Assembly (NCBI GenBank): GCA_020056205.1
Contig: JAGVIF010000393.1
Location: 1 to 12,051, forward strand
Direction of reading: 5' to 3'
Length of the DNA stretch: 12,051 bases
From: Lentisphaeria bacterium
GTDB lineage: Bacteria; Verrucomicrobiota; Lentisphaeria; Victivallales; GWF2-50-93
Shown here: positions 3,899 through 10,008 of the stretch, one piece after another
How positions within the stretch are numbered: the stretch's first letter is position 1
How the letters are laid out: every line of letters starts with the position of its first letter
Notes under the pieces: generated by a model
Databases searched by the model: none
The model's input: the letters and a program-made list of their open reading frames with translations, nothing else
Told to the model about the DNA's origin: nothing
Program-made: the position numbers and the translations under genes

Positions 3899-5640
3899 TC
3901 CAAATTACACAAAAATTCTTAAAGAACCTAAAAAATCATTCAGTGCTCATTCTGATCCTGTCCTGCGGCGTGATATCTTTTGGAATATGGAATGCCGGTT
4001 TGCCGCTTGGCGATGAGGCAGGATATATAGAAACGGCAAGAAATCTTGCTTCGGAAGGGAAATATACTTCAAACCTATATTTGCTAAGCTATGCCCTGAT
4101 ATTTAAATTTACTTCTATGGAGCCTGCTTCCGCCCATTATCTTCTCAGATATGCCACTTCGCTTCTTTCGACAGTCCTGATCTATCTGCTCCTTAAAAGC
4201 ATGAAATTCGCCATGAGTGAGTTCATAATACTAATTGTCTGCATATTCTGGATGAACTGCCTCCTAAACATCCCATATGTCCAGTATGGAAATATCAACC
4301 TGTTTGCCATGAACATTGCGTTGATCCCTGTTATTTATCTGATCAGAAAACAATCCCTGAATTCTTTTATTATCTGTCTGGCCTCTTTCCTGTGGTGTTC
4401 AAAGATCAGGCCTGAATATATTCTCGCAGTATTCCTGCTGCTTTTATATTTCGGATTTATTTATTTCGACAAGATATTTCATGCCGATAAACAAAAGATA
4501 ATGTCATCAATAAGATCATCTTTCTTATCGCTGCTGATTTTAGTCTTTACACTATTTACAATCTTTTCCGATAAGTCGCAGGAGAGGGATTTTGACAAGT
4601 ATATGTTGCAGGTATTAAGCCAGTGCTATACTTTTTTATACGCCAAAATGAATCCGGATATCAGCATAGATCCTATGCAGGAACATTCTGCCATAATAGA
4701 TGAAGTTTTTGACCATCCATCAGGTTTTATAGATGCCTTCAGGAAAAATCCCTTAGAAATCATTACATATTTTGCTCTGAATGGATCAATCAATACCTTG
4801 CTCCTTGTCCCAAGCCTTGTTCAGCATAGGCCAATGATTCCAATATCGAAACTCCCCGAAATTTATGAAATATTGTTTATCTTGTTCGTTCCGGTCTGTG
4901 CTGTCGCCATGGTTATAAGAAGAGCCTTCAAAGGAATTTCCTTTAATAATATCCTATCATTTCTCAACATGAAGCTGGCGGATATTCCAGAACGCCTTCA
5001 AATTCGTGGTAATTTAATCAAGCGCATGGATATTACAGTTCTAATTATTTTATCTTCTTCCTCAATAGTTTCCATATTCCTCGCGATGCCGGATCCGAGA
5101 TGTTGGGTGACATGCATTCCCCTCGCGCTTTTTTGGTTTGCGTGGGGTTATTCGTACATGTATTCAAATGTCATCCCCGCAAAATTTAAAATAAAACAAA
5201 ATGATTTATCATCCTGCCCTCAGAAGTCATGTTTTCCCTATTGCATGATTCCATTGGCGGTATTTTTAATTTTTGCTGTCTATATGTCCCGTCCAAAGTT
5301 TCTTGACCTGAAAAGCAACAAAGTTGTGATTGATGCTATAAGAAAATCATCGGCATGGAAGAAAAAGCCTGTTATTGCCGGAAGCAACTCGATTTCCGTT
5401 TATGCAGTAATGGGGGAATGCGAAAGAATTGGATTATCCGCTTTGTCTACGGAAATGTTCAAAAGCGGATATATTGATTATTTCGTTGTTGACATAAATC
5501 ACAGGATATCCAAGTTCTGGGCGGAAAACCGGGAATTTATGGAAAATTTTGAAGCCGATCCAGGAACATGGGGATACATGAATATGAATGTTGAAAATTC
5601 AGACGGCTTAGTTGTTTATGCAAAGAAGCAAACAAGATGA
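3895..5640 (+). CDS. Polytopic GT-C glycosyltransferase (PMT/ArnT-like, GT39/GT83 type)
   Basis: A 581-residue integral membrane protein with about ten or more hydrophobic segments. The first covers roughly residues 15-35 and is followed by GLPLGDEAGYIETARNLASEG. The acidic pair D40-E41 in this first outer loop, followed by a Tyr and a helix ending in G-Y/F, is the hallmark of GT-C enzymes such as PMT and ArnT. These use a polyprenyl-phosphate-linked sugar on the periplasmic side of the membrane. The last 120 residues are a soluble domain (from about RPKFLDLKSNK). The start is GTG at 3895, chosen because GTGA overlaps the upstream stop and AAAGGA lies six bases upstream. The stop overlaps the ATG of the broken GT2 gene. 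DPM-type GT2 enzymes make the polyprenyl-phosphate sugars that GT-C enzymes use, so this gene may have lost a dedicated donor synthase. Acceptor unknown. Confidence 0.82.
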   Translation: MIQITQKFLKNLKNHSVLILILSCGVISFGIWNAGLPLGDEAGYIETARNLASEGKYTSNLYLLSYALIFKFTSMEPASAHYLLRYATSLLSTVLIYLLLKSMKFAMSEFIILIVCIFWMNCLLNIPYVQYGNINLFAMNIALIPVIYLIRKQSLNSFIICLASFLWCSKIRPEYILAVFLLLLYFGFIYFDKIFHADKQKIMSSIRSSFLSLLILVFTLFTIFSDKSQERDFDKYMLQVLSQCYTFLYAKMNPDISIDPMQEHSAIIDEVFDHPSGFIDAFRKNPLEIITYFALNGSINTLLLVPSLVQHRPMIPISKLPEIYEILFILFVPVCAVAMVIRRAFKGISFNNILSFLNMKLADIPERLQIRGNLIKRMDITVLIILSSSSIVSIFLAMPDPRCWVTCIPLALFWFAWGYSYMYSNVIPAKFKIKQNDLSSCPQKSCFPYCMIPLAVFLIFAVYMSRPKFLDLKSNKVVIDAIRKSSAWKKKPVIAGSNSISVYAVMGECERIGLSALSTEMFKSGYIDYFVVDINHRISKFWAENREFMENFEADPGTWGYMNMNVENSDGLVVYAKKQTR

Positions 5641-6052
5641 AAAAAGTCCTCATATTCGTTGTGGCATATCACGCGGAGTCCCATATAGCATCGGTTCTTG
5701 AGAGAATTCCAAAGGAGATATGGGATTCAGAGAAATACACGTCGGAGATATTGATAATTGATGACGCATCCGCTGACGGGACGAAACAGGATTTATAAGG
5801 GAATGCGGAAGAAATTCAATTTGAGGGTTCTTCGAAATCCGGTCAATCAGGGATATGGAGGGAATATCATAAAGAATTCCATCATATCAAAACTTCAACG
5901 TTTTAATGGACTCCAAGCTTTCTGAATTCCACACGGGCTACAGGGCATTTTCAAGGGAATTGCTCGAATCCCTCCCGTTTGAGGCAATGATCCGCATTGA
6001 CTTTCTGTTTTCCCCGATTACAGCACAAGAGAGAATCATATCCGTCCCATAG
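5637..6052 (+). pseudogene. Broken GT2 glycosyltransferase (polyprenyl-phosphate sugar synthase/DPM1-like)
   Basis: Remains of a GT2 gene in three frames. Piece one (5637-5798) starts with an ATG overlapping the previous stop, reads MKKVLIFVVAYHAESHIASV, then LIIDDASADGTK, the GT-A nucleotide-binding edge, and ends at TAA. A one-base shift near 5785-5790 opens piece two (about 5791-5885), with FNLRVLRNPVNQGYGGN, the next conserved GT2 block. Piece three (5906-6052, a third frame) reads KLSEFHTGYRAFSRELLESL, the conserved block near the end of the catalytic domain in DPM1-like GT2 proteins. Between pieces two and three about 80 residues are missing, including the region expected to hold the DxD-type metal site and the GSRML-like block. 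The end of piece three drifts from the family, and a mobile element starts 4 nt after its stop. No functional enzyme can be made. Family assignment rests on the motif order; the role as donor synthase for the adjacent GT-C is inference. Confidence 0.88.
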
Positions 6053-6056
6053 CGGG
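6049..6056. repeat. 8-bp direct repeat, left copy (target site duplication)
   Basis: ATAGCGGG directly abuts the left end of the 209-bp element and recurs exactly at 6266-6273, directly abutting its right end. A perfect 8-bp repeat at precisely the two boundaries defined by the inverted repeats is what a transposition event leaves. It overlaps the stop codon of the third piece of the broken GT2 gene (TAG at 6050-6052). Confidence 0.8.
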
Positions 6057-6096
6057 GTGAGAGTTCAGCAAACCACGCCCTTTGCTGAACTCTTAC
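6057..6096 (-). repeat. 40-nt hairpin repeat, left-end copy
   Basis: A stem-loop. On the plus strand GTGAGAGTTCAGCAAA pairs with TTTGCTGAACTCTTAC apart from one G-T wobble, leaving the 8-nt loop CCACGCCC. Read on the minus strand the loop is GGGCGTGG, matching the other two copies. Its stem sequence differs from theirs at many positions but stays paired. Confidence 0.85.
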
Positions 6097-6225
6097 TAAA
6101 AATAAAATGCGAAATACGAGTTTTAAATTGGTTTTTTATAAAAAATAACCGTAACGTCTTTTCCCTGTGTACTAAAAGTCGTTTTTTTTTTGCGGGAAAA
6201 TCATTGATTTCGCATTTTATTAGAG

Positions 6226-6265
6226 GTAAATATTCACTGAAGGACGTGGTTCAGTGAATATTTAC
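6226..6265 (+). repeat. 40-nt hairpin repeat, right-end copy
   Basis: A perfect 16-bp stem (GTAAATATTCACTGAA with its complement) enclosing the 8-nt loop GGACGTGG. It forms the outer part of the right terminal repeat of the 209-bp element. It differs by a single loop base from the solo copy at 9969-10008. Confidence 0.9.
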
Positions 6266-6273
6266 ATAGCGGG
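6266..6273. repeat. 8-bp direct repeat, right copy (target site duplication)
   Basis: ATAGCGGG, identical to 6049-6056, immediately after the last base of the 209-bp element. The preceding base is also C at both sites, but symmetry of the inverted repeats places that right-hand C inside the element, so 8 bp is the better reading. Confidence 0.8.
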
Positions 6274-6486
6274 CGGGGAGGCCGAAGCGTTTTAGACTAT
6301 AGGCTAATAGATCACAACACAAGAAAGCGTATTTCAAAAGCCAAATCAAATAGAGAATGTCATAGATTTCTAATTTGTGGCAGAATCCCACATGAACAGA
6401 TAGGCAATAGGGCATGAGGCCGATATCCCTTTTGATAAATTGCCAGCCCGGATTACATTACGCCTGTAAAAATAGGAGACATCTCA
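6274..6486. other. Gene-free stretch upstream of the toxin-antitoxin pair
   Basis: About 210 bases with no open frame showing recognisable protein similarity and no clear RNA gene. The frame through 6274-6414 stays open for some 45 codons but has no plausible start and a composition unlike its neighbours. The 3' part probably holds the promoter and leader of the downstream antitoxin gene. I cannot tell whether any of it is residual sequence from the broken GT2 gene. Confidence 0.5.
6432..6459 (+). promoter_or_regulatory. Possible sigma70-type promoter for mntA-hepT
   Basis: TTGATA (6432-6437) and TACATT (6454-6459) are separated by 16 bases and sit 28 bases before the antitoxin ATG. The -35 matches the consensus at five of six bases and the -10 at four of six. 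An independent promoter is expected for a toxin-antitoxin pair inserted in another operon. The match is weak and could be chance. Confidence 0.3.
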
Positions 6487-6876
6487 ATGACCATGTCCTT
6501 CGATGAACTTATTGTAAAAACATTTGAATCCGACCAACGTGTCGATGCGATCTATCTGCTTGGAAGCGTAACCAACGGATATTTGCGCCCAGATAGCGAC
6601 ATAGATATCGCCATTCTCCCAGCAATAGGGGCGAAGTTTGACTCCATTTGCCGTCATGCTTCAGCGTCTTTGCTCAGCCTCGAACTTGGAAGAGATATTG
6701 ACATCGGCTTGCTCTCATCTGACAATCTTGTCTATACTTATCAGGCGATCATGACCGGGAGGAGGCTTTTCGCGCGCAATCCGGGCGATGCTGATCAGAG
6801 GCTGGCTTGTCTGCTGGGGATGTATGGCCAATTCAATCTCGACCGGGCGGAGGTGTGCAATGCCTATTCAACCTGA
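6487..6876 (+). CDS. mntA: MNT-domain nucleotidyltransferase antitoxin (MntA family)
   Basis: A 129-residue minimal nucleotidyltransferase. In characterised MntA-HepT pairs this protein neutralises HepT by adding AMP units to a tyrosine of the toxin. The signature GS-x10-D-x-D is intact: G26-S27, D38 and D40 in LLGSVTNGYLRPDSDIDIAIL. A further acidic strand, RDIDIGLL (D70/D72), supplies the third carboxylate, so it should be catalytically active. Length is normal for the family. The ATG at 6487 has AGGAG eight bases upstream; a second in-frame ATG at 6493 is possible. The gene overlaps hepT by 17 nt, giving antitoxin-first order and coupled translation. It lies between a decayed GT2 gene and a radical SAM gene, unrelated to glycan synthesis, so it is probably an acquired module. 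Confidence 0.9.
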   Translation: MTMSFDELIVKTFESDQRVDAIYLLGSVTNGYLRPDSDIDIAILPAIGAKFDSICRHASASLLSLELGRDIDIGLLSSDNLVYTYQAIMTGRRLFARNPGDADQRLACLLGMYGQFNLDRAEVCNAYST

Positions 6877-7279
6877 CGATGTCCTTCTGAACAAGGCCGC
6901 AATAATTGAGCGTGCGTTGCGCAGAGTCCGGGAGGAATTAGCTCAAGATACAAGTCTTGTAAACTATACCCATATTGATGCGATGACACTGAACATTCAA
7001 CGGGCCTGTCAGGCCGCAATAGACATGGCCATGCACATTGTGGCCAAACAGCATCTTGGAATGCCTCAAACAAGCGCAGATGCATTCCGCCTCTTACTCA
7101 AAGCCGATATGATAAGCAAAGATGTCGCCAAGGACATGGTCGCGATGGTAGGCTTCCGCAATGTCGCAGTTCACGAATACCAAGAATTGAATATGGCAGT
7201 TCTGAAGCATATAGCTGAAAATGGATGGCGTTCCTTGGTTTCCTATTGCGCAGAACTCAGGCTACGCATCACCTCATAA
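6860..7279 (+). CDS. hepT: HEPN-domain ribonuclease toxin (HepT family)
   Basis: A 139-residue, all-helical HEPN protein. HepT toxins are RNases that cleave RNA and stop growth when their antitoxin is lost. The diagnostic R-x4-H-x-Y motif is intact as R100, H105 and Y107 in GFRNVAVHEYQ. R and H are the RNase residues, and the Tyr is the site modified by MntA in studied systems. I chose the ATG at 6860 over an earlier in-frame ATG at 6788 for three reasons: it has GGAGG six bases upstream, it gives the usual family length, and the earlier start would add a poor-quality extension overlapping most of the antitoxin's C-terminal coding region. The pair appears complete and functional. In this locus it may stabilise the surrounding genes or act in phage defence; both roles are inferred. 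Confidence 0.9.
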   Translation: MPIQPDDVLLNKAAIIERALRRVREELAQDTSLVNYTHIDAMTLNIQRACQAAIDMAMHIVAKQHLGMPQTSADAFRLLLKADMISKDVAKDMVAMVGFRNVAVHEYQELNMAVLKHIAENGWRSLVSYCAELRLRITS

Positions 7280-7340: not shown

Positions 7341-8744
7341 ATGATGAAAATTCTTCTTGTAGTTCCGTCTCAACATGAAATATACGGGAAAATAACCCCG
7401 CCAGAGCATCCGCATCTTGGGATTCTATACATCGCCGCCATCTTACAAAGGGATGGACACGATGTCAAAACCGCCGATTTTGACGCGGAATTTCTTACGT
7501 TTCAGACCTTTGCAAACATTTTGACTGACTACAATCCGGATATTGTTGGAATCACTGCGACAACTCCGGTTTTCAACAACGCCGTAAAAATTGCCGAATT
7601 CACAAAAAAGCATTCCTCCGCCAAGACACTCATAGGAGGAATTCACCCGACACTTATGCCTTTGGAAACTATGGCTTCCGGTGTTTTCGATTTTGCCGTA
7701 AAGGGCGAGGGCGAAGAAAGTATAGCGGAACTTCTTAAATGCCTTGAATCCGGCGGCAAACTGTCAACAGTCAGAGGAATCTTGTACCGTGTGGGTGAAA
7801 AAAATTATGAGACCGAAAACAGGCCTTTTATTGACGACCTTGACTCCATCCCCTTCCCTGCGAGAAAATTACTTAAAAACAAAAAATACACATATCCGGA
7901 TGCGCTTAAAACACCGGCCTTTCCAATAATTACAAGCAGAGGGTGTCCGGGAAATTGCACATTCTGCACTGCGAAATTCGCACATGGCAAAAGATTCAGA
8001 TGCAGGAGCGCTGCCAATGTGGTTGATGAAATAGAACTGCTCATTTCAGAGTATAATGCGGCTGAAATCCACATATGGGACGATAATTTCATCACAAATC
8101 GGAAAAGAGTTTTTGCCGTCAGAGACGAGATAAAAAGACGCAGAATAAAATGTCTCTTCGCCTTCCCAAACGGGATAAGGGCTGATTTCATAAACCGGGA
8201 AATATTGCAGGTTCTGAAGGACATGGGCACATACAGCATTGCCATCGGGGTCGAATCCGGTAGCCAGAACATCTTAGACAGAATTCAGAAGGGGATAAAA
8301 CTTGAGCAAATTGAAAATGCGTTCAACATCGCCAAGTCGCTCGGTTTGGAAACTTGGGGCTTCTTTCTCCTCGGTCTTCCGGGAGAAAACGAAAAAACCA
8401 TAAACCAGACTATTGATTTCGCTATAAAACTCGACCCCGACATCGCCAAATTTCATCTGCTCAAACCATATCCCAAAAGCGAAATCTACAACGAATTGAA
8501 AAGCCTTGGAATGATAATTGACGAGAATTTTGTCCATTATGGGATACATACAAGTCCCGTGCATCGTCTCCCCGATCTTTCCGCCGGGCAACTCATGGCG
8601 TTGCAAAAAAAAGCGTATAGAAAATTCTACATGAGACCGGGCAAAATACTGAAGGAAATACTTAGGCTTAAAACTTTTAACAGGATGAAACTTAATTTTT
8701 CAGCCGGCATTTCGATAATCAAAGACAAAATTCTATCCGGATGA
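7341..8744 (+). CDS. B12-binding domain radical SAM protein
   Basis: A 467-residue cytoplasmic iron-sulfur enzyme of the cobalamin-dependent radical SAM class (BchE-like architecture). Residues 1 to about 140 form the B12-binding Rossmann domain: MKILLVVPS, PPEHPHLGILYIAAIL, DIVGITATTP, LIGGIHPTLMP and FAVKGEGEESI are all typical. The radical SAM barrel follows, with the [4Fe-4S] motif C202-x3-C206-x2-C209 in SRGCPGNCTFC, the GVESGSQ SAM-contact strand (303-309) and FFLLGLPGE further on. The classical B12 DxHxxG motif is absent, as in many members. Start at ATG 7341; ATG 7344 is equally possible. The stop overlaps the next GT-C start by 4 nt, which ties it to glycan or lipid modification. The reaction (methylation or a rearrangement on a sugar or lipid carrier) cannot be deduced. 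Confidence 0.88.
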   Translation: MMKILLVVPSQHEIYGKITPPEHPHLGILYIAAILQRDGHDVKTADFDAEFLTFQTFANILTDYNPDIVGITATTPVFNNAVKIAEFTKKHSSAKTLIGGIHPTLMPLETMASGVFDFAVKGEGEESIAELLKCLESGGKLSTVRGILYRVGEKNYETENRPFIDDLDSIPFPARKLLKNKKYTYPDALKTPAFPIITSRGCPGNCTFCTAKFAHGKRFRCRSAANVVDEIELLISEYNAAEIHIWDDNFITNRKRVFAVRDEIKRRRIKCLFAFPNGIRADFINREILQVLKDMGTYSIAIGVESGSQNILDRIQKGIKLEQIENAFNIAKSLGLETWGFFLLGLPGENEKTINQTIDFAIKLDPDIAKFHLLKPYPKSEIYNELKSLGMIIDENFVHYGIHTSPVHRLPDLSAGQLMALQKKAYRKFYMRPGKILKEILRLKTFNRMKLNFSAGISIIKDKILSG

Positions 8745-10000
8745 ATAAGAACAGGCATATCATTATAATAATTCTCCTCTCCCTTATCGCGAGGGCAATT
8801 GTTATTCTCGTATTGAACAGGCAACTCGATCCCGGAATCCTCGAATACGAGATACTTGCGCTCAACATGCTTAAACACGGGACGTTTTCAATGCAGTTCA
8901 GGGAGTATGGAGAATTTAAGGGTGTTATTGCTCCCGGATATTCATTGCTCATCTACTGCATATATGCCATATTTGGGATTCACAGGGAAATCCTTCTGCT
9001 CCTGCAAATCGCATCTATGACATTATTTGCGTTGATAATATACGGGATTGCGGAAAAATGTCTCAAGAACAGGAGCATGGCTCTTGTCGCGGCAATCCTC
9101 ACCATCTTGCATCCAGGCCTCCTCTACTACAACATACTGTATATACACAACTACAATATTTATCTTCCCCTTTTTTACGCCACCATCCTTCTTTTTATAA
9201 TGGCGCTCCGGAATAATTCAGGGAAACCTCTCCTCTGGGCTGGCGTAACTGCAGGCATTTCAACATTGACAAGGGCAACATTTTCTCCAATTTTTGTTGT
9301 TTGTCTCGCCTTTTATCTAATTTTCAAACGCGATGTGGCGCTGAGGAAAAAAATGATTTACGTCATCTCATCCTTTTTAATTTTTGCCGCGATCAATATG
9401 CCTTGGGCCGTCAGAAATTATATGCAATTCGGCAAACTCATCTATTCCCAAAACACAAAGTGGGAGTCATTCTGGGTAGGCAACAACCCAAATGCCAGCG
9501 GAGGACATTTTCATGCTGACGGGACGCTCGTTCTCGCGACAAAGCCCCCTGAAATGCAGGATGAGATAAACGCAAACAAGGGCGATGAAATTGCGATAGA
9601 AGAAGTTTTCAAAAAATATTCTTTACAATACGCGAAGTCCCAGCCTTTTCACTTCGTAAAAGGACTTATCCGCAAGTCCTTTTACTTCTGGTGGTTTTAT
9701 CCGCAGACAGGTCTTTTTTATCCAAAATCATACTTGCTCGCCTACAAGGGGATATACATCGCGCTGCTCATTTTCACAGCGATTGGCCTGTATTTCTGCC
9801 ATAAAGAAAAATTATGGTGTTCGGAAATGATTTTTCCGGCGCTACTCGTCCTCGGCATCTGGGCCGCCCACACAATGAATTTTATGGAGATGCGCCACAG
9901 ATGGACGATTGAACCGGTTCTTATCATCTTTGCGTCGGTGGGAGTATGGAAGACAATTCGGGCAGTATGTAAATATTCACTGAAGGACGGGGTTCAGTGA
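8741..10000 (+). CDS. Polytopic GT-C glycosyltransferase (GT39/PMT family)
   Basis: A 419-residue membrane protein with an N-terminal transmembrane helix (about residues 7-26). It is followed by LDPGILEYEILALNML and APGYSLLIYCIYAIFG, the acidic first-loop and PGY elements of bacterial GT39-type glycosyltransferases. These take sugar from polyprenyl-phosphate donors outside the cytoplasmic membrane. About eight to ten further hydrophobic segments follow, with a larger soluble loop near residues 245-290 (WVGNNPNASGGHFH and onward). The ATG overlaps the radical SAM stop (ATGA). The last residues, YSLKDGVQ, and the TGA stop are encoded by the 40-nt hairpin repeat at 9969-10008, so the natural C-terminus was probably replaced or trimmed at this point. 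Acceptor unknown. Confidence 0.85.
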   Translation: MNKNRHIIIIILLSLIARAIVILVLNRQLDPGILEYEILALNMLKHGTFSMQFREYGEFKGVIAPGYSLLIYCIYAIFGIHREILLLLQIASMTLFALIIYGIAEKCLKNRSMALVAAILTILHPGLLYYNILYIHNYNIYLPLFYATILLFIMALRNNSGKPLLWAGVTAGISTLTRATFSPIFVVCLAFYLIFKRDVALRKKMIYVISSFLIFAAINMPWAVRNYMQFGKLIYSQNTKWESFWVGNNPNASGGHFHADGTLVLATKPPEMQDEINANKGDEIAIEEVFKKYSLQYAKSQPFHFVKGLIRKSFYFWWFYPQTGLFYPKSYLLAYKGIYIALLIFTAIGLYFCHKEKLWCSEMIFPALLVLGIWAAHTMNFMEMRHRWTIEPVLIIFASVGVWKTIRAVCKYSLKDGVQ

Positions 10001-10008
10001 ATATTTAC
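9969..10008 (+). repeat. 40-nt hairpin repeat, solo copy at a gene junction
   Basis: A perfect 16-bp stem (GTAAATATTCACTGAA and its complement) with the loop GGACGGGG. It matches the right-end hairpin of the 209-bp element at 39 of 40 positions. No inner AATAAAATGCGAAAT block and no flanking 8-bp duplication accompany it. It contains the TGA stop of the upstream GT-C gene (9998-10000) and the GTG start of the downstream gene (9997-9999). Confidence 0.9.

Follow-up and report, generated by a model that had tools for sequence, protein, structure and literature searches.

ISDge4, a published active IS66 element, has ends of the GTGA/GTAA...TCAGCA type (GTGACTACTCAGCA and GTAACTGCTCAGCA) and an 8-bp repeat (CCTCGATG), according to the available extracts of PMC12898284. 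The 8-bp duplication and the end type of the IS66 family (ISDge4, ISBst12 group; PMC12898284, extracts) are common to the element analyzed in this study, which is a 209-bp segment (6057-6265) bounded by perfect 8-bp direct repeats in the window, i.e., the whole 12,051-nucleotide stretch of DNA that was analyzed. Its left end (GTGAGAGTTCAGCA) agrees with the first ISDge4 end at 10 of 14 positions by hand count (ISDge4 end from the extracts of PMC12898284). Unlike IS66 elements, the window element has no transposase gene, and each of its ends bears an inverted copy of the first 16 bp, resulting in a hairpin.

Several other groups of short mobile or repeated sequences are comparable to this element. 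MITEPsy1/2 (PMC3189936) and MITEPye1 (PMC11578231) are likewise short and non-coding, share their ends with insertion sequences, and have target duplications, but in the accessible parts of these papers they are tied to IS5-like, Tn3-family, and IS1182-family ends, not to IS66, and palindromic terminal repeats are not described there for either group. PATEs of Haloquadratum walsbyi likewise have palindromes near both ends and short terminal-only versions, and small repeats insert into their palindromes, as in the hairpins of the host genome (extracts of PMC3119063). However, PATEs are described in these extracts as related to IS605-type elements and as lacking terminal inverted repeats and target duplications, both of which the window element has, and membership in this group was rejected on that account. 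REP/REPIN sequences with RAYT are likewise dispersed short palindromes occurring as singles and pairs (extracts of PMC3733652). Unlike REP/REPIN sequences as characterized in those extracts, the hairpins lack a constant tag (GTAG or CGTC) in their listed flanks and have no RAYT beside them in the scanned loci, and some full copies have 8-bp duplications. A search of open-licence literature, in partial texts, returned no MITE called IS66-derived and none with hairpin IS ends, which does not prove their absence; neither is described in the accessible portions of PMC3119063, PMC3281130, PMC3189936, PMC3733652, PMC12898284, PMC9769881, PMC11578231, or PMC6053426. Set against these systems, the window element is best described as an IS66-type MITE in a variant form with hairpin ends.

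The element is short, lacks a transposase gene, and has terminal inverted repeats, as is characteristic of MITEs. The sole ORF of at least 80 aa listed across it (86 aa, 5997-6257) begins outside the element and is of insufficient length for a transposase. The 8-bp duplication, the two 40-nt hairpins, and the 15-bp blocks lying 44 nt inward were all found exactly where a preliminary description of this DNA had placed them (Table 1).

Table 1. Features of the MITE and of a related solo hairpin, in positions of the window
Feature	Position	Strand	Remarks
Left 8-bp target-site duplication copy, ATAGCGGG	6049..6056	.	Perfect match to 6266-6273
MITE, 209 bp, without transposase gene	6057..6265	.	Family copies in host and relatives
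Left terminal hairpin: outer arm GTGAGAGTTCAGCAAA, loop CCACGCCC, inverted arm copy	6057..6096	+	16-bp arms, 94%; 8-nt loop
Inner inverted-repeat block AATAAAATGCGAAAT, 15 bp	6101..6115	+	44 nt from left element end
Core between inner blocks, 91 nt	6116..6206	.	
Inner inverted-repeat block, reverse complement of AATAAAATGCGAAAT	6207..6221	-	44 nt from right element end
Right terminal hairpin, loop GGACGTGG, 8 nt	6226..6265	+	Perfect 16-bp stem, 100%
Right 8-bp target-site duplication copy, ATAGCGGG	6266..6273	.	
Solo copy of right-end hairpin	9969..10008	+	Without 8-bp duplication; 3' end of ORF 8741-10000

The host is a metagenome-assembled genome (G000; 2.89 Mb, 597 contigs, 81% complete), of which the window is contig C15. 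A BLAST search of the element against this genome returned at least 68 matches, including itself (best 40 of 285 candidates scored). The 15-bp block, allowing one mismatch, occurred 88 times (including the two in the window) vs 0 for the reversed pattern, and the arm of the right hairpin, allowing two mismatches, occurred 413 times vs 7 for its reversed pattern, from which roughly 200 dispersed hairpins were estimated by arm count. Thus, the further copies suggested in the preliminary description were found in the host, as well as in relatives (see below), by BLAST, block, and arm searches, and the family occupies multiple unrelated sites.

The fetched host loci contained 109 motif groups of full, half, compact-pair, solo, and long-loop forms. 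Full elements have the order hairpin, 4 nt, block, core, block, 4 nt, and hairpin, and compact pairs consist of two hairpins without a core. Of the 12 host groups with two blocks, 9 have a core of 65-67 nt, compared with 91 nt in the window, and 4 of the 6 two-hairpin host entries measure 186-187 bp, the window copy being longer and diverged. The two-hairpin copy on contig C108, for example, has the left arm GTATAAGTTCAGTAAA and the right arm GTAAATATTCACCGAA. Hairpin arms with long loops were observed on contigs C49, C61, C2, C86, C162, and C163 of G000 (L012, L039, L191, L196, L180, and L199, respectively). The long-loop insert on C49 and C61 is a GC-rich palindromic repeat and recalls the insertion of SMR-A into PATE palindromes, as reported in the extracts of PMC3119063.

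A typical host copy matched 13 of the 60 genomes searched, host included. All seven same-family relatives were matched, with 7 to 17 matches each, and five further genomes had one match each, among which only G030 contained a whole hairpin on reading. Matches were also obtained in 7 of 7 same-family genomes when a relative's own copy was used as the query. The layout recurs among relatives despite sequence drift, as exemplified by the ends in G005 (left GTACGTATTCAGTAAACTATG, right GTAAATATTCACTGAACTATG). A solo hairpin in a Victivallis vadensis metagenome-assembled genome (L114, CAMCYE010000002.1, 3478-3518) has C-G instead of T-A as its second base pair, with both sides changed. No viral contig matched the two hairpin patterns.

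Among 81 loci of relatives picked from search hits, 28 entries had both outer ends (27 distinct sequences). Twenty-three of these had hairpins at both ends, and the other five included L232, the source of two of the seven entries within one mismatch of a duplication. A perfect 8-bp duplication was found in 5 of the 28 entries, all of them among the 23 with two hairpins and all different in sequence: CAACGAAG (L211), GATAAATG (L212), CAATGGCT (L215), TAATCTCC (L233), and CTCAGGTG (L258). Mismatched pairings of left and right flanks reached one mismatch or fewer in 0.26% of 756 cases. When lengths of 4-12 bp were considered, exact duplications in the 28 entries occurred only at 8 bp, with none at 4-7 or 9-12. 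Copies with different flanking duplications, which had been proposed as support for a mobile element, therefore exist in relatives.

In the host, one of the six two-hairpin entries, that of the window, had the duplication; these entries have five distinct left ends, two of them sharing one, and the window entry was put in by hand, its left hairpin having failed the filter. None of the four compact hairpin pairs of the host had a duplication. Four near-identical 123-bp copies in G005 (L240, L241, L244, and L245) were without one (5-7 mismatches of 8), unlike the 123-bp copy L258 of G007, in which it is perfect. We also observed a 129-bp element without terminal 40-nt hairpins but with the perfect 8-bp duplication CTTCGAAC at G000:C309:3821-3949 (in L013). 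Because the duplication is patchy, being absent from most host copies and the G005 copies and present in L258 and the C309 element, the data do not show that all copies arose by one simple route.

An orthologous site without the element, also anticipated in the preliminary description, was identified in G007. The insertion on contig C78 of G006 is 168 bp long with the duplication GATAAATG, and its flanks align with contig C393 of G007 in stretches of 588 bp (83%) and 564 bp (86%). The G006 query has 274 bp between these flanks and G007 has 97 bp; the G007 site is thus 177 bp shorter, vs the 176 bp expected from 168 + 8. The alignment of the intergenic region is diverged, and its small gaps can explain the one extra base, so that the junction at G007:C393 is not proven to the exact position. 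In a second site comparison (L065), the flank matches were broken and diverged.

The DNA fold of 6049-6273 has a free energy of -48 kcal/mol vs -20.15 (sd 3.16) in 200 shuffles (z -8.81). Such a strong fold would be expected of a transcription terminator or another fixed RNA structure that short repeats happen to flank by chance. This explanation is hardly credible, as the structure is multicopy with different flanks, target duplications and an orthologous site without it were found, and no Rfam family was identified at E<=0.5 in 5900-6500. A secondary terminator or RNA role of the element is possible.

PF03050 gave 8 matches in relatives, distributed over five of eight genomes, and no match in the host genome (81% complete). 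The 8 loci were scanned for inverted ends beside 7-9-bp duplications, and a 2313-bp IS66 element was found at L163 (G001:C441) with the duplication GTGAATCT and the ends GTACGTATTCAGTGAAGTATGT and GTAAATATTCAGTAAACTATGT; L164 and L170 are two further IS66 elements from the same scan, with other ends. L163 encodes a 579-aa IS66 transposase (235.2 bits vs the NCBIfam IS66 equivalog cut-off of 180; PF03050 E 3e-49) and a 126-aa DUF6788 protein. The ends of L163 agreed at 16-20 of 22 positions with those of the five duplicated copies from relatives, and the two sets also share the way in which left and right ends differ at positions 4-5 (CG vs AA). The corresponding values for L164 and L170 were 9-11 of 22, and 8-12 of 22 against all ends listed. 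The ends of the C309 element are of the same type as those of L163 (17-19 of 22).

In the window, the left outer end agreed with the two L163 ends at 12 and 14 of 22 positions and the right outer end at 16 and 18. Among 1,249,320 background positions, none scored 18 and one scored 17, with hundreds at 14 and thousands at 12. The best places in the window for IS66 ends were 6265 (18), 6226 (17), 10008 (17), and 9969 (16), of which the first two delimit the right hairpin and the last two the solo hairpin. The left border at 6057 (14) scored no better than several unrelated places. An L163-type transposase was present in 2 of 137 genomes of the order at E<=1e-30, one of them as a 98-residue fragment, and G007 holds a fragment 83% identical to the L163 transposase. 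IS66 relatives of this transposase occurred in at least 5000 plasmid records, all below 60% identity at the best place among the matches listed.

Thus, the 8-bp duplication typical of IS66 is present, the shared ends are strong for relatives and for the right end of the window element and weak for its left end, and no IS66 transposase was found in the host genome (81% complete), which is strictly not required of a MITE. The IS66-type link made in the preliminary description stands in that L163 has similar ends and 8-bp duplications occur; the lack of a PF03050 match in the host, the rarity of the L163-type transposase in the order, the copies without duplication in the host and in G005, and the indistinct left end of the window copy count against it. 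Judged by sequence, the IS66 affiliation of the window element is supported, because the 8-bp duplications occur and the IS66 ends of L163 match the family ends. The family is multicopy, has 8-bp duplications and a site without the element, and shares similar ends with an IS66 element of a relative. The best explanation, with a probability of about 0.85, is a non-autonomous IS66-type MITE moved in trans. An IS66 (DDE) transposase supplied in trans would recognize the outermost ~22 bp at each end, and insertion at a staggered 8-bp target would yield the ATAGCGGG duplication. The mover would have been the L163-type transposase lineage, and its source in the host has probably been lost or is unassembled. 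The inverted second end copy that makes each terminus a hairpin would be a second binding site or a structural insulator, not a by-product of palindrome-perfecting replication errors.

A different mode of mobility would be that of a REP/REPIN-type palindrome pair moved in trans by RAYT (Y1 tyrosine transposase) without target duplication. This would agree with the two hairpins in inverted order, the roughly 200 dispersed hairpins by arm count, solo hairpins without perfect duplications, and RAYT-like genes in the host and relatives. However, the family hairpin was found at none of the 78 Y1/RAYT loci scanned, which comprised 77 loci (all 78 PF01797 hits in seven relatives) and the host locus L062, with L061 left out. 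Eight of the 78 loci passed a loose filter, none of them with the family hairpin by eye, so that a RAYT/Y1 mover was rejected as a candidate; on recheck, three of the 78 loci had one isolated arm-like stretch, and none had a pair. The host Y1 hit L061 has the left family hairpin, but as a gene-cutting insertion, and the GTAG repeat flanking the host RAYT at L062 is unrelated to the family hairpin in type. Because exact 8-bp duplications occur at some two-hairpin elements, the RAYT explanation is further weakened for full elements, and we consider it very unlikely.

The RAYT-like gene of L062 (G000:C357, 68-658) scored 65.5 bits with NCBIfam REP_Tyr_transpos vs a cut-off of 80, and its flanking GTAGTAGCGCAATTTATTGCGC repeats form a GTAG-type REP pair common to several other fetched host loci. 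At L061 (G000:C59, 69-173), the IS200-type tnpA N-terminal stretch KWECKYHIVFIPKYRRKV stops where the left hairpin has its outer border, so that the element or a remnant of it sits inside the IS200 gene.

The right terminal hairpin of the window element is of the same type as the dispersed solo hairpins. The fetched host loci include 48 simple hairpins of the right type: 18 lie next to a 15-bp block, 9 lie next to a left-type arm, and 21 are solitary. A perfect duplication was found at none of these 21 host solos (best, 2 mismatches). In a second set, consisting of 40 short sequences of 336-921 bp from relatives, 29 of 40 hairpins were solitary within the sequence fetched, and these had no perfect duplication either. 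The stems of solos are well kept and their loops variable, in a sample chosen by similarity to the hairpin. Decayed 8-bp duplications were also considered at solos: 5 of 21 in the host were within 3 mismatches (null 0.60, p 0.0002), a threshold chosen at length 8 after data inspection, and 3 of 29 in relatives (null 1.80, p 0.26). Since the host signal failed to replicate in the 29 solos of relatives, such duplications are not claimed.

The solo hairpins could be a separate mobile unit, with the 209-bp element being a composite of two of them and a passenger that has 15-bp inverted repeats of its own. In line with this, solos stop sharply at the hairpin on the outer side, a core with its two 15-bp blocks but no hairpins lies at C249:380-475 in the host, and the 15-bp block is found alone or fused to other repeats. 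We consider this origin unlikely, as the order of hairpin, 4 nt, and block is repeated in several genera, solos lack perfect duplications, and the hairpins of relatives retain a graded inner tail, as right-end remnants of the element would. Specifically, 2-4 inner-tail bases were kept by 27 of 79 hairpins of relatives and at least 6 by 24 more, and 2-3 bases were kept in 11 of 159 cases at a control position. The graded tail fits right-end remnants of the IS66-type MITE, with the number of solos unexplained by it; solo hairpins are common and only partly explained. Separately, the loci L049, L051, L054, and L047 have block AATAAAATGCGAAAT fused directly to the GTAG repeat pair, with hairpins absent.

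The end of this MITE consists of the IS66 terminal repeat, a loop, and an inverted copy of the outer 16 bp, and in relatives the loop is itself part of the IS66-end match. The palindromic ends are indeed unusual, as had been suggested: the inner inverted copies are near-perfect in the window (1 mismatch on the left, 0 on the right) and absent from the three IS66 elements tested, the six ends of which (L163, L164, and L170) have an inner inverted copy with 6-10 mismatches of 16 at best. At 8 of 16 stem positions, at least two Watson-Crick types were found, each in at least 3 of 83 distinct hairpins, in hairpins gathered by a palindrome filter and with pair changes that template switching could also yield. 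Complementary loops between the two hairpins were seen in many copies, but this idea was dropped because they are missing in L212, L233, and L258.

We tentatively propose, as a doubtful but conceivable possibility, that the self-inverted, doubled IS66 end is a functional architecture, in which a 40-nt palindromic terminus with two transposase sites, kept palindromic during inter-genus drift, has itself become a REP-like 40-nt repeat with hundreds of copies without target duplications.

Upstream of the element, 5640-5798 gave a Pfam GT2 match under the cut-off (E 1.8e-4, 21.9 vs 23.3 bits), and 5930-6049 had no profile match at E<=0.001. A glycosyltransferase fragment is therefore present, as the preliminary description had it, and its decay is plausible on thin support, because the GT2 match is below the cut-off and 5930-6049 is matchless. 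The solo hairpin at 9969-10008 spans the final codons and stop of the mannosyltransferase-like ORF 8741-10000, which was possibly truncated by it. In addition, overlapping ORFs at 6487-7279 encode a Polbeta nucleotidyltransferase domain and a HepT-like domain, which we take to be an MntA/HepT-type toxin-antitoxin arrangement.

A functional hairpin end would represent a new kind of transposon terminus; if the hairpin is not functional, the family is a clear case of a transposon end becoming a palindromic repeat that is dispersed in the genome. In both cases, a transposon family is linked to the roughly 200 hairpins estimated by arm count in a single genome.
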